DNA from: Microcoleus sp. FACHB-1515
GTDB taxonomy: Bacteria > Cyanobacteriota > Cyanobacteriia > Elainellales > Elainellaceae
NCBI RefSeq assembly: GCF_014696105.1
Contig: NZ_JACJPO010000061.1
Location: 1-64,000 of the forward strand
Length of the DNA stretch: 64,000 nt
Direction: 5' to 3'
Shown here: positions 21,166 to 27,673 of the stretch, one piece after another
Position numbering within the stretch: position 1 is the first letter of the stretch
Layout of the letters: each line of letters starts with the position of its first letter
Program-made: the position numbers and the translations under genes
Notes under the pieces: generated by a model
The model's input: only the letters and a program-made list of their open reading frames with translations
Told to the model about the DNA's origin: nothing
The model's database searches: none

Positions 21166-21472
21166 GGAAACGAAGTTCTCCTAGCGTCAATTGGCTTTCT
21201 CCATCTTATCTTCATCCCGATCGGACAAACCGATTCCAGCAGTATCGATCGCTCAAACCCGCCATTTTGCGTTCTTTCACCGCTGATATTCAACAGTCAG
21301 CAGGGCGAATCGTTCGTTCTGTGAGTCGATCGAAGTTTTTCGATGGTTCGGTGCGACTGACATCAATGTGTTTATTCTTTCAGGAAAGAAAGTTGACAGA
21401 GCTATAAACTTACGTTATCTTCAAACTCACTTACGTCTAGTCTGCTTAATTTGGCTTGCGCCTACCTTGATG

Positions 21473-21640
21473 TATCGCTCAATCCAAAGCGGAGGAACCA
21501 TTTACCGGGGCTAATCTTGCGCCAGCTAAAGCAACGCTGAAAATCGTCCATGTATCGTTTTTGTGCTTTAGCGCCCAGAAGGACATCTCTCAGTCCTCGC
21601 CCGTCAGCTAACTTCGTCAGCGTTTGAGAGGAGCCTGTTT
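21473..21640 (+). ncRNA. c-di-AMP riboswitch (ydaO/yuaA class)
   Basis: The 3' half carries the near-invariant block CCGTCAGCTAACTTCGTCAG followed by CGTTTGAGAGG (from 21601). The 5' half carries GGAGGAACC...ACCGGGGCTAATC (from 21491), matching the GGGGGACC...GGGGUGAAUC core of the class. CTCAA (21478-21482) can pair with TTGAG (21624-21628) as the closing stem, and AGGAC/GTCCT (21580-21597) forms an internal hairpin. The aptamer ends about 165 nt before the glycosyltransferase start. I see no obvious intrinsic terminator after it, so the switch mechanism is unclear. Members sense cyclic di-AMP and usually turn genes off. Confidence 0.88.
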
Positions 21641-21805
21641 AGACTGGCATTCTTTCGATTATTTCAATTCAAAGAAAGCTTGATCTTGTCAGTATTCCTT
21701 TGGCTGGTCAATTGCTTCGCTGTGCCTATCCCAATCAAGGCGCGGCAAATTTTGCCTGAGCTTTTTGCGGGAGCGGCGGTTCAACTGTATGAGGTGAAAC
21801 CATCT

Positions 21806-23059
21806 ATGCTCTTGACTCCAGAGAACCGTGTTGCATTGATTTCTGTTTCTGGCGATCCCGCGATCGAAATTGGTCGTGAAGAAGCCGGAGGCCAAAATGT
21901 GTATGTGCGTCAGGTCGGCTTGGCCTTGGCGCAACAAGGCTGGCAAGTGGATATGTTTTCGCGTCAAACCAGCCCTGACCAAGAGGCGATCGTGCAGCAC
22001 ACGCCCAACTGCCGCACGATTCGCCTCAAAGCTGGAGCCACCGAATTTATTTCGCGAGATCGCGTTTTTCCCCATCTGCCCGAATTTGTGCAAGCCCTGC
22101 TCGATTTTCAGAAGCAAGAAGGGCATCAGTATCAGCTTGTCCATAGCAACTATTGGCTGTCGTCTTGGGTGGGAATGCAGCTTAAAAAGCATCAGCCCCT
22201 TGCTCAAGTCCACACCTACCACTCGCTCGGCGCAATCAAGTATCAGGCGATCGATCAGATCCCGCCGATCGCTGCCAAACGCCTGACCGTGGAAAAAACC
22301 TGCCTGGAAACTGCTGAACGCATTGTGGCAACTAGCCCGCAAGAGCAAGAACACATGCGGACTTACGTTTCAACCAAAGGCAAGATCGACATGATCCCCT
22401 GCGGAACCGATACCGATCGCTTCGGCAAAGTCGATCGCGCTGCTGCTCGCGCCGCTTTGGGCTTCAGTCTGGATGACAAAATCGTGCTGTATGTCGGACG
22501 GTTTGATCCGCGCAAAGGCATTGAAACGCTGGTGCGAGCGATCGGGCAATCCTGCCAGCGCTCCAACGTCAAGCTTGTCATTGGTGGCGGCAGCACACCC
22601 GGACAGGTAGACGGACAAGAGCGCGATCGCATCGAGTCGATCGTTGCGGAACTCGGCTTGCAGGAAAACGCAATCTTCCCCGGACAGCTTGGCGATCCCA
22701 AGTTGCCGCTGTACTACGCTGCTGCGGATGTCTGTGTGGTTCCCAGCCACTACGAACCGTTTGGACTGGTGGCGATCGAAGCGATGGCAAGCCGGACTCC
22801 GGTTGTTGCCAGCGATGTTGGCGGCTTGCAGTTCACCGTGATCCCAGAGGTGACGGGTTTGCTCGTTCCGCCCAAAGATGATTTTGCGTTTGCCGCTGCG
22901 ATCGATCGGATTTTGCTCAATCCCGACTGGCGCAACCAGCTTGGGCAAACGGCTCGTCAGCGAGTTGAAATCGCATTTAGCTGGCAAAGCGTCGCGATTC
23001 GCCTCAGCCAGCTTTACACCAAGCTGCTTGATCAAACGGTTCAAGAGCAGGCCGCCTAA
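21806..23059 (+). CDS. GT4-family glycosyltransferase, sucrose-phosphate-synthase/MshA-like (417 aa)
   Basis: Two-domain GT-B enzyme using a nucleotide sugar. The N-terminal loop EEAGGQNVYVRQVGLALAQQ is the SPS/MshA-type GGxN motif. The C-terminal domain has VGRFDPRKGIETL and the donor-binding E-x7-E (EPFGLVAIEAMA). The closest groups are sucrose-phosphate synthases and inositol glycosyltransferases; the acceptor is not decidable. The start is set at the ATG at 21806 (MLLTPENRVALISVSGDP), since the upstream extension from a TTG at 21680 looks non-coding. A predicted c-di-AMP riboswitch lies in the leader, which suggests control by osmotic or wall signals and fits a compatible-solute or envelope glycoside product. 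Confidence 0.87.
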   Translation: MLLTPENRVALISVSGDPAIEIGREEAGGQNVYVRQVGLALAQQGWQVDMFSRQTSPDQEAIVQHTPNCRTIRLKAGATEFISRDRVFPHLPEFVQALLDFQKQEGHQYQLVHSNYWLSSWVGMQLKKHQPLAQVHTYHSLGAIKYQAIDQIPPIAAKRLTVEKTCLETAERIVATSPQEQEHMRTYVSTKGKIDMIPCGTDTDRFGKVDRAAARAALGFSLDDKIVLYVGRFDPRKGIETLVRAIGQSCQRSNVKLVIGGGSTPGQVDGQERDRIESIVAELGLQENAIFPGQLGDPKLPLYYAAADVCVVPSHYEPFGLVAIEAMASRTPVVASDVGGLQFTVIPEVTGLLVPPKDDFAFAAAIDRILLNPDWRNQLGQTARQRVEIAFSWQSVAIRLSQLYTKLLDQTVQEQAA

Positions 23060-23104: not shown

Positions 23105-23290
23105 ATGTTTCAGTTAAACGACTACGCTCAACATCAAGCTTCTGGCCGCATTGGTAAAGTCATTGGCTTCGGCCATCAAATGCTCGACAGCGTCTACCTG
23201 CCCACGCTCAAAGTTCGGATCACCGAGGGCAACGCTTTGGGCAGCTTTCTCGAAGATGTCTCGTCTGCTTGGGTTCCCGTGAAAGTGTAG
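23105..23290 (+). CDS. Conserved small protein of unknown function (61 aa)
   Basis: Starts MFQLNDYAQHQASGRIGKVI and has the look of a compact beta-rich domain (GKVIGFGHQML, then LPTLKVRIT, ending SSAWVPVKV). I do not recognise a named family. The ATG at 23105 is chosen over an upstream in-frame codon. It sits 45 nt downstream of the glycosyltransferase on the same strand and is followed by a hairpin terminator, so it is probably the last gene of that transcript. Confidence 0.65.
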   Translation: MFQLNDYAQHQASGRIGKVIGFGHQMLDSVYLPTLKVRITEGNALGSFLEDVSSAWVPVKV

Positions 23291-25285: not shown

Positions 25286-27673
25286 ATGAAACTGTTTCGA
25301 TCGATTCAGCAGCAACTCACTCACAAGCCAATTTTGCCGAAGATTGCTCGACGCTGGAAGCCGCTGCGACGATTTTACCTGCGACGCTGGCGACGCCTGC
25401 TGCAACAAAAAATTCCGCGTCGGAAAGTGGCTCGATCGGGCATATCGCGGCCTGTGCTGCTGCTGCTGGCGATCGTGCTGCTCACCAGTGCGATCGGGCA
25501 TCGCTTTTATAATGAGCCGCAGTTGGCCGTGAATACGATCGCGCCGCAAACGCTGAGAGCGCCCGCATCCGCCCAGGTTGAAGATACCAAAACCACTGCC
25601 GAACATCGGCTGGCTGCCCGCACCGGATCGACCCCGGTGTTGATGGTGGACGAAACGGCCAATCAAGAAATTCAGCAGGCACTCCAGCGCTATTTCAACC
25701 AGGGAAACGAACTGCGAGCCAAAGCCGGATCGCTGCCATTTGCGCCGCCGTTTGACCTTTCGATGCAATCGCAGCAGTATCTGAGACAGGCTACGGATGC
25801 GGACTGGCAAACGATTCTGCAACTTGCCAGCGGTGCTTCCGATGCGGTTTCTGCCAATCTTACGCCTGTTGAGCAGTTTGTTGTTCTTGAACTGCAAAGC
25901 TATCGCCGCAATAGTTCAGCCGAAGAATTCGCAAGTTTGCAAAAGGTGATCGATCGCGTCCGACAACGCTATGCTGCCGCCGTTGCCGCGATCGCCACCC
26001 AAACCAAAGACGATCCCCAAGCCCTCTACACGACAAGCCTGCTCGATCTCTCGGACGAGGATTGGGAGGCAACTCAATTTGCTGTGCAGCAAGCGCTCGA
26101 TCGCATTCTGATTCAGGGCATCGCGCCCGGACTGCCCGATACGCAGTTTTCTCAAATTGCCCAAGCTCATCTAATTGATGTGCCGCCTGCCGGACAACCG
26201 ATCGCCACTGCAATGCTTACGCAGGTTCTCCAGCCCAATTTGGTGCAAGACCCAGAGCAAACCCGCCTGCGAGCCGAGCAAGCCGCTCAGTCTGTCAAGC
26301 CAGAAATCGTCAAAATTCGCCAGGGCGAAATCATCGTCGCAGCGGGCGATCGAATCAGCCAGTCGGATTTTGTCCTGCTCGATTACTTCAACCTCAGCCG
26401 TCGATCGCTGAATGGTTGGGCAATTTTGGGTTTCACGGGCTTGGTCAGCGCTGCCGTTGTGATCTTTATATATGTCGAACGCTATTCGCACAGCGGACTG
26501 CGAAAGCGCGACTATCTGCTAGTGCTGCTGCTTGCTCTCAGCGCTCCCTTGACGGTGATGCTGAGTTTGCCGACCACGAGTCTGCCTGCGATCGCCCTGC
26601 TGCTCGGCAGCTTTTACGGCTCGGCCTTGGGCGCAACAACCGTTCTGCTGCTAAGTCTGCTGCTGCCGATCGGCCTGCCAATCGGCAGCAGTGCCCTCGT
26701 TGCCAGCAGCATCGGCAGCATTGTCGGAGCACTGCTGGCGGGCAAGCGGCGATCGCGCGAAGAACTCGCCTTGTTGGGCGGCGCGATCGGCTTGACGCAG
26801 GGCGTCCTGTATCTGCTGCTAAACGTGCTGGACAGTCCGGTTTGGTACAGCGTTTTGATGGCGGCGTTGATGCAGGCGTTGCTCGGTGTGGCGTGGAGCG
26901 TGGTGGCGATCGGGCTGAGTCCGTATTTAGAGCATGTTTTCGATCTGGTGACGCCGATTCGCCTGGCAGAACTGTCGAACCCGAACTGTCCGCTGCTCAA
27001 AAAACTCGCCGCCCAAACGCCCGGAACCTTTCAGCACACCTTATTTGTAGCAACGTTGGCAGAAGCAGCGGCGCGATCGCTACGCTGCAACGTCGAACTG
27101 GTGCGAGCCGGAACGCTCTATCACGACATCGGCAAAATGCACGACCCGCAGGGCTTCATCGAAAATCAAATGGGCGGCGTCAACAAGCACGATCTAATCG
27201 ATGATCCCTGGCAGAGTGCCGCCATTATCAAAAAGCACGTGACCGAGGGGTTGGCGATCGCTCGCCGTTACCGTTTGCCCACCGCAGTTCAGGCATTCAT
27301 TCCCGAACATCAAGGCACAATGACGATCGCATATTTTCATCATCAGGCGCAGCGGCGAGCGCAAGAACACGCGGAATTTCTCGTGGACGATTCCGATTTT
27401 CGCTACGATGGCCCGATTCCGCAGTCACGCGAAACCGGAATTGTCATGCTGGCCGATTCCTGTGAAGCCGCGTTGCGATCGCTCAAAGAGGCCACGCCCG
27501 AAGAAGCCTTGGCAATGGTGAATCGCGTCCTTCGCGCTCGCTGGCAAGACGAACAACTGGTTGAATCCGGCCTGACTCGTGCCGAAATGTCGCAAATTGC
27601 CGAAATTTTTGTGCGCGTTTGGCAGCAATCCAACCACCAGCGCATTCCCTATCCGAAAGCGCGATCGGCATGA
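25286..27673 (+). CDS. Membrane HD-domain phosphodiesterase, PgpH/7TMR-HDED type (795 aa)
   Basis: Architecture of the PgpH family that degrades cyclic di-AMP. A basic cytoplasmic N-terminus is followed by one membrane helix (around residues 52-70), an extracytoplasmic 7TMR-HDED domain of about 300 residues, a bundle of seven hydrophobic helices (about 380-560) and a cytoplasmic HD domain. The HD domain shows HTLFVATLAEAAARS, the catalytic HDIGK at 613-617, KKHVTEG and FIPEHQGTM, the metal-binding His/Asp set of the family. The start ATG at 25286 (MKLFRSIQQQL) is preferred over an upstream TTG. A strong terminator follows. With the riboswitch at 21.5 kb it points to c-di-AMP signalling; the ligand is inferred from the family. 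Confidence 0.88.
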   Translation: MKLFRSIQQQLTHKPILPKIARRWKPLRRFYLRRWRRLLQQKIPRRKVARSGISRPVLLLLAIVLLTSAIGHRFYNEPQLAVNTIAPQTLRAPASAQVEDTKTTAEHRLAARTGSTPVLMVDETANQEIQQALQRYFNQGNELRAKAGSLPFAPPFDLSMQSQQYLRQATDADWQTILQLASGASDAVSANLTPVEQFVVLELQSYRRNSSAEEFASLQKVIDRVRQRYAAAVAAIATQTKDDPQALYTTSLLDLSDEDWEATQFAVQQALDRILIQGIAPGLPDTQFSQIAQAHLIDVPPAGQPIATAMLTQVLQPNLVQDPEQTRLRAEQAAQSVKPEIVKIRQGEIIVAAGDRISQSDFVLLDYFNLSRRSLNGWAILGFTGLVSAAVVIFIYVERYSHSGLRKRDYLLVLLLALSAPLTVMLSLPTTSLPAIALLLGSFYGSALGATTVLLLSLLLPIGLPIGSSALVASSIGSIVGALLAGKRRSREELALLGGAIGLTQGVLYLLLNVLDSPVWYSVLMAALMQALLGVAWSVVAIGLSPYLEHVFDLVTPIRLAELSNPNCPLLKKLAAQTPGTFQHTLFVATLAEAAARSLRCNVELVRAGTLYHDIGKMHDPQGFIENQMGGVNKHDLIDDPWQSAAIIKKHVTEGLAIARRYRLPTAVQAFIPEHQGTMTIAYFHHQAQRRAQEHAEFLVDDSDFRYDGPIPQSRETGIVMLADSCEAALRSLKEATPEEALAMVNRVLRARWQDEQLVESGLTRAEMSQIAEIFVRVWQQSNHQRIPYPKARSA

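Follow-up and report, generated by a model that had tools for sequence, protein, structure and literature searches.

In the window (the whole 64-kb stretch of DNA analyzed here, from genome G000 of 5.79 Mb), a c-di-AMP riboswitch lies ahead of a gene for a putative sucrose-phosphate synthase (SPS). We consider it fairly likely that the riboswitch controls this gene, and probably the small downstream frame ORF61 as well, by which c-di-AMP would directly set the synthesis of the compatible solute sucrose. The element is a well-supported new member of a known riboswitch class; its target is meaningful, and its expression platform may work by tail exchange. All features are summarized in Table 1.

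Table 1. Features of the putative riboswitch-SPS operon in the window.
Feature	Position	Strand	Details	Basis
Promoter-like site	21393..21421	+	TTGACA 21393-21398, 17 nt, TATCTT 21416-21421	sequence
5' element AGUCUGCUUAAU	21439..21450	+	P0 strand AGUC 21439-21442, P1 strand 21443-21446, then UAAU	
P2 hairpin	21450..21488	+	UUUGG 21450-21454 with CCAAA 21484-21488	segment fold
Rest of aptamer	21489..21612	+	GCGGAGGAACC, GGGG, variable arm, P5, CCCGUCAGCUAAC	RF00379 alignment
Variable arm	about 21518-21580	+		RF00379 alignment
P5 hairpin	21580-21597	+	loop CUCUCA 21587-21592; pairs in 99.6% of cells	
P1 3' strand and tail	21619..21637	+	P1 21619-21622, P7 strand 21625-21631, P0 strand 21633-21636; tail is also the predicted 5' arm of helix A	
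Helix A (predicted)	21629..21699	+	21629-21638 pairs with 21689-21699, using the tail that P7 and P0 also need	
Helix B (predicted)	21702..21730	+	GGCUGGU 21702-21708 with 21724-21730; one of six pairs non-standard in the window	
Shine-Dalgarno GAGGUGA	21791..21797	+	8 nt before the start codon; kept in five family leaders	
Minimal GT4-type sucrose-phosphate synthase (predicted)	21806..23059	+	417 aa; two GT4 domains; Tll1590 448.8 bits	
ORF61, 61-aa small protein	23105..23290	+	begins 45 nt behind the SPS stop codon; 16 of the 23 riboswitch-SPS loci carry a homologue	

The riboswitch was confirmed by a cmscan search of the 64-kb window, in which RF00379 (c-di-AMP, ydaO/yuaA) gave the single above-threshold Rfam match (21466-21637, + strand; 60.6 bits against a curated cut-off of 38; E 1.4e-11). 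The match covers the full length of the model (positions 1-134 of 134), and no second Rfam element was found in the leader up to E 10. An earlier sequence-only reading had placed a riboswitch of the ydaO/yuaA class ahead of a GT4 glycosyltransferase gene and had proposed this Infernal search as a check; both parts of the assignment held, the GT4 domains being detected in the gene product. The conserved core blocks reported there were all located within 21489-21612 on the RF00379 alignment, namely GCGGAGGAACC at 21489-21499, GGGG at 21507-21510, and CCCGUCAGCUAAC at 21600-21612, and the core hairpin AGGAC-AUCUCUCA-GUCCU spans 21580-21597. The features by which a c-di-AMP riboswitch is recognized, i.e., the GGAGGAACC, GGGG, and GUCAGCUAAC blocks together with the pairing between loop and tail, were thus found in the window. 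The aptamer runs from 21439 to about 21637 and is expected to bind c-di-AMP.

The 5' border of the aptamer had to be moved. A start at 21473, as drawn earlier, is out of register: the closing stem P1 does exist, as had been claimed, but about 30 nt further upstream, with its 5' strand within 21439-21450. Comparison with 104 other leaders places P1 of the window at 21444-21446 paired with 21619-21621, and the aptamer therefore starts near 21439 and carries a long P2. With the corrected register, 315 of 315 cells are paired in the 105 aligned leaders, compared with 142 of 305 for the register drawn by Rfam in the window, where CGCU at 21476-21479 is taken as the 5' strand. The corrected 5' strand of P1 belongs to a 12-nt element, AGUC[A/U]GCCUAAU. 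With at most three substitutions allowed, this element was found ahead of the GGAGGAACC block in 138 of 148 leader entries, a count that includes duplicates, and its GCC pairs with the GGC behind GUCAGCUAAC in all 116 distinct instances. As the search pattern itself contains GCC and AGTC (at most three substitutions), it favors those letters in P1 and P0; the rows with double changes in P1 (GCU/AGC in eight instances including the window, ACC/GGU in one) are not favored by it. Rfam itself places P1 at the 5' element in L242 (85.3 bits) and in L185 (67.1 bits, with 33 nt inserted in P2 of the alignment) and misses it in L263, as in the window, so that a general misplacement of P1 by Rfam in cyanobacterial members was rejected.

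The remaining aptamer helices were evaluated in the same way. The P2 segments reached a mean z of -3.65 relative to shuffles, with 97 of 105 leaders below -1. The P7 pseudoknot, formed by the tail and the loop CUCUCA, is paired in 97.7% of cells in the 105 leaders, and none of 300 shuffles was as high. For P0 (AGUC with the tail GACU), 95.0% of cells are paired and three are double-changed in these leaders; here, 10 of 300 shuffles reached the observed pairing and 12 of 300 the observed number of double changes. In the window, P0 has one mismatch.

Downstream of the aptamer, RNAalifold on 25 SPS leaders first indicated pairing of the aptamer tail with CUCGUCAGUGUCCUU, a helix termed helix A. 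In a set of 76 cyanobacterial riboswitches that serve several targets, 77.0% of the cells of its 14 pairs are paired, against 39.6-49.4% when the strands are slid; double changes occur at 13 of the 14 pairs, and 0 of 500 shuffles reached the same score for pairing and covariation. Across the 105 leaders, the nine core pairs are formed in 89.7% of cells, a level that none of 300 shuffles reached; for one of the nine, just 10 of the 105 rows carry a letter on each side. Two of these nine pairs are non-standard in the window, and in its lowest-energy fold the tail goes to another nearby local hairpin, which would still compete with P7. Helix B is paired in 96.7% of cells in 45 SPS leaders, with double changes at three pairs. 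Taken together in the same 45 leaders, helix A, helix B (GGCUGGU with ACCUGCC), and helix C, a small helix just before the Shine-Dalgarno sequence that the window lacks, are paired in 92.3% of cells and show double changes at 9 of their 24 pairs, values that none of 500 shuffles reached. A long-range helix CCUGCC/GGCAGG ahead of the ribosome binding site was rejected: it shows no double change, and all 500 shuffles scored as high. The idea of a platform exclusive to SPS genes was likewise discarded, as its first 107-133 nt match elsewhere in Nostocaceae, several of the matches being known RF00379 sites.

These helices suggest a switch by strand exchange. With c-di-AMP bound, P1, P7, and P0 would hold the aptamer 3' tail (21619-21636); with c-di-AMP absent, the tail would pair with 21689-21699 to form helix A, followed by helix B. 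Competition of P7 and P0 with helix A for the tail is a plausible and likely basis for switching, and the inner pairs of helix A could in principle form alongside P7. The exchange is predicted to take place in the cell. The switch would most likely be OFF at high c-di-AMP, a sign suggested by analogy with the class and with related riboswitches in which the helix-A arm doubles as a terminator arm.

No intrinsic terminator was found by the terminator scan downstream of the window aptamer, in agreement with the earlier remark that a clear terminator is absent; among the 80 SPS-type entries (duplicates included), a single weak one was detected, in G031. Of the non-SPS entries, the scan was positive for 7 of the 26 from the window's family, five of these overlapping the helix-A arm, and for 3 of the 42 others. 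Clean terminator-like hairpins with six or seven U are present immediately 3' of the aptamer in the family members L010, L012, and L030, where the 5' arm is identical to the 3' arm of helix A; in such a layout, the bound ligand would release the arm and transcription would terminate. Judged by eye, L010 and L012 stand ahead of permease-like genes and L030 ahead of an open frame.

Transcription of the leader is expected to start near 21428, behind the promoter-like site, whose TTGAC and TATxxT are invariant in five leaders of the window's family; of 148 leader entries, 78 conform to a loosely defined promoter pattern. The SPS frame is open from TTG 21680, and homologues begin at ATG 21806 behind GAGGTGA. 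By this match to the homologue starts, the start codon of the SPS gene is ATG 21806.

The best solved relative of the encoded enzyme is Tll1590 (6kih) with 448.8 bits, whereas the highest-scoring chain of any other protein, 3c48 (MshA), reaches 219.4 bits. This bears out the resemblance to sucrose-phosphate synthases noted in the sequence-only reading. Tll1590 of Thermosynechococcus elongatus (TeSPS) has been assayed as an SPS (PMC7264703). Six TeSPS residues that were mutated (H158, E331, R249, R253, R178, and R105) are all kept, as H139, E317, R232, R236, R159, and R84, with the chain numbering taken to be the paper numbering plus 3. The NCBIfam model TIGR02472 (SPS, glycosyltransferase domain) scored 138 bits, below its curated cut-off of 576, and TIGR03449 (MshA) scored 288.6 bits, below its cut-off of 462.5, yet at the top of the NCBIfam library. 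Since both models remain below cut-off, we infer the product, and the gene very probably encodes a sucrose-phosphate synthase. A compatible solute or an envelope glycoside had been offered as the possible product; the compatible solute is the better supported of the two, and nothing was found for the glycoside. A second SPS-like gene (66% identity) is located on contig C78 of the genome, where no riboswitch match was found, and an S6PP-domain protein (278 bits) is likely the sucrose-phosphate phosphatase.

ORF61 is a probable operon partner of the SPS gene, presumably co-transcribed with it. It has no Pfam match up to E 10. Its AlphaFold2 model is all-beta with a mean pLDDT of 91.1, and a Foldseek search gave CarD as the best match (E 0.027) and other small barrels, with none at 0.001. 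Homologues also follow the SPS gene in three loci free of the riboswitch (L117, L122, and L177), which belong to the same SPS clade, and no match at E 1e-8 was found within the flanks of the other 61 loci. The frame is rare (13 of 386 genomes), and a second copy is present in the window genome (G000:C20:25280). In G098, a c-di-AMP riboswitch (72.8 bits) is located directly ahead of an ORF61 homologue with no SPS gene between them (loci L263/L328).

The genome encodes one diadenylate cyclase. Its only 7TMR-HD (PgpH-like) gene lies in the window at 25286-27673 on the + strand, 2.2 kb downstream of the SPS gene; 7TMR-HD proteins are a known type of c-di-AMP phosphodiesterase and are present in cyanobacteria (PMC5986932). 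No 7TMR-HD match was found beside SPS within the flanks of the 80 fetched loci, several of whose contigs, including that of L105, end early, and the vicinity of SPS and phosphodiesterase genes may be due to chance. Two more RF00379 copies are found on contig C36 (L067, G000:C36:118500-128500). By eye, one stands before ABC transporter-like permease, binding protein, and ATPase genes, and the other behind ABC transporter-like genes and before a universal-stress-protein-like gene. Elsewhere, at G020:C351:16898-17520 and G022:C3:2587-3197, two c-di-AMP riboswitches roughly 0.3 kb from each other were noted in divergent orientation on opposite strands.

With regard to its distribution, the combination of riboswitch and SPS is rare but recurrent. 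Among the 36 genomes of the window's family, 35 carry RF00379 and 19 an SPS homologue (E up to 1e-100), and in five (G000, G019, G031, G015, and G024) the riboswitch is directly upstream of SPS, the Rfam match and the gene match being separated by 152-173 nt. In a phylum sample of 386 genomes, in which the strict filters of the first scan lose some matches, 94 genomes carry RF00379, 84 an SPS homologue (E up to 1e-110), and five the pair (G000, G404, G366, G219, and G413). Among the named relatives in the scan, Leptolyngbyaceae cyanobacterium SM1_3_5 (L105) comes closest, with 93% protein identity. Of 80 named loci fetched by protein similarity, 23 have a riboswitch core at most 900 nt upstream of SPS; these belong to Nostoc, Desmonostoc, Brasilonema, Scytonema, Tolypothrix, Komarekiella, Iningainema, Goleter, two Nostocales, and L105. 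Between the end of GUCAGCUAAC and the ATG, 22 of these loci have 184-190 nt and one has 201 nt, although the spacing of the two core blocks within the aptamer varies by 96 nt. On the reverse strand of RF00379 sites (e.g., L009, L013, and L014), the core GTTAGCTGAC mimics the forward core under a loose pattern; opposite-strand core matches were removed before counting, which left 70 of 82 rows.

A blastn search of 217 Nostocaceae genomes gave, among the matches listed, 62 rows in 57 genomes covering at least 200 of the 223 query bases, a count made by hand in which a genome's second rows could stem from other genes. Of 50 such loci inspected, 49 showed the core, arm, and start as expected. In a tree of 93 SPS proteins, all 30 riboswitch-bearing rows fall into one starred clade of 41, and the 52 rows outside this clade have no riboswitch. 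The riboswitch label requires six changes on the tree compared with 25.7 in shuffles (quick method, root at midpoint only). The simplest reading is one old acquisition of the riboswitch followed by several losses. One locus, L330 (G129:C50), appears decayed: its riboswitch core falls short of the Rfam threshold and its SPS gene is reduced to a broken remnant, while ORF61 is still open.

Several other explanations have to be weighed against a tail-exchange switch on an SPS gene. A translational output, in which riboswitch and SPS are real and a strand released on ligand binding covers the Shine-Dalgarno sequence, along the lines of the model for C. glutamicum nlpC, is a serious contender, though its chances are rated somewhat below even. 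It would suit the near absence of terminators from SPS leaders, and in C. glutamicum nlpC it is backed by reporter data and a CTCC/GGAG exchange model (PMC9960051). In a folding test of Shine-Dalgarno access with the tail held or free (20 shuffles per row; 17 rows with doubtful start codons dropped by hand, rows lacking a start and L112 left out), 14 of 36 other entries lost more than 0.1 of access and two showed the reverse, with a mean of 0.082 against 0.041 in shuffles, although two of these 36 'n' rows (L002 and L031) are SPS leaders entered twice, being also among the 30 'S' rows. The 30 SPS entries themselves, however, include six above 0.1 and one reverse (mean 0.025 against 0.012 in shuffles), and the change in the window was -0.01. 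With no effect in the window and little in SPS leaders, masking was not adopted as the mechanism and is kept as a rival; the sequence-only reading was right to leave the output mechanism open.

Doubts about the enzyme or the aptamer weigh less. It is unlikely that the riboswitch is real and the enzyme another GT4 transferase, e.g., one that places glucose onto a different acceptor: the score of Tll1590 is far above that of any other solved protein and six of six residues are kept, even if both NCBIfam models stay below cut-off, the genome holds a second SPS-like gene (C78), and the neighboring GT in T. elongatus is the glucosylsucrose synthase tll1591 (PMC9909042). Highly improbable is a decayed or inactive relic that has lost c-di-AMP binding. 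The P0 mismatch and imperfect helix A of the window would be in keeping with decay, as would the sub-threshold remnant in the relative G129, but an E of 1.4e-11 over the full model length, a P1 kept via changes on both sides (GCU with AGC), and an intact gene, promoter-like site, and start argue against a relic.

The preferred reading, c-di-AMP control of SPS through tail exchange, would link turgor and ion signaling to sugar output, and a signal of osmotic balance may directly set the amount of protective sugar made. More tentatively, and with clear reservations, we propose a broader picture in which a cyanobacterial riboswitch form (P0 clamp and conserved 3' extension, with the tail as the exchanged strand) would govern, in one old SPS lineage, a terminator-less sucrose operon with a new small beta-barrel protein, c-di-AMP being the direct signal for sucrose accumulation. 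A 2019 review on Synechocystis and other cyanobacteria calls the signal chains behind ggpS/spsA expression enigmatic (PMC6753628), and a riboswitch on the SPS gene offers one testable answer to this puzzle in the lineages having it. The c-di-AMP level under sorbitol or salt was reported to rise, remain unchanged, or fall depending on the strain in four cyanobacteria, falling in F. diplosiphon with salt (PMC5986932); therefore, a simple scheme in which stress lowers c-di-AMP is not established. The surprise is limited because reviews already tie cyanobacterial riboswitch regulons to osmoprotectant synthesis, citing Nelson 2013 (PMC4284465; PMC5986932), and the SPS target may already be in the gene tables of that work. 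No paper joining SPS with a c-di-AMP riboswitch was found in the literature searched, which did not cover Nelson 2013 or Mantovani 2022. Furthermore, ORF61 is an unstudied candidate member of the same regulon, and the corrected aptamer border and the tail-exchange model define the RNA and the mutants worth examining.

For comparison with known systems, c-di-AMP riboswitches are an established class regarded as OFF switches (PMC9960051), with transporters and cell-wall enzymes as known targets and an osmolyte gene in Dehalobacter (PMC9337991). The window element resembles the RF00379 class in its Rfam score, conserved blocks, P1, P5, and loop-tail pairing (P7), and differs from it in the SPS target, the long P2, the presence of a cyanobacterial P0 and helix A not covered by the Rfam model, and the lack of a terminator. 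The enzyme agrees with TeSPS, its best solved relative, in six of six tested residues (PMC7264703), the window enzyme being known by its sequence. The C. glutamicum nlpC riboswitch likewise has no canonical terminator, and a strand-exchange model was proposed for it; however, its target is a cell-wall peptidase and its translational effect was deduced from reporters, whereas the window element is known from sequence (PMC9960051). The tandem Na+/c-di-AMP riboswitch of Dehalobacter shares a compatible-solute synthesis gene as target, but there a terminator acts, OFF was measured in vitro, and the osmolyte is N-epsilon-acetyl-beta-lysine, while the window has no tandem (PMC9337991). Finally, the Synechocystis slr0753 riboswitch has a putative chloride efflux transporter as its target instead of an SPS, and it shares with the window element the cyanobacterial origin and an osmotic or ionic target (PMC10117731).
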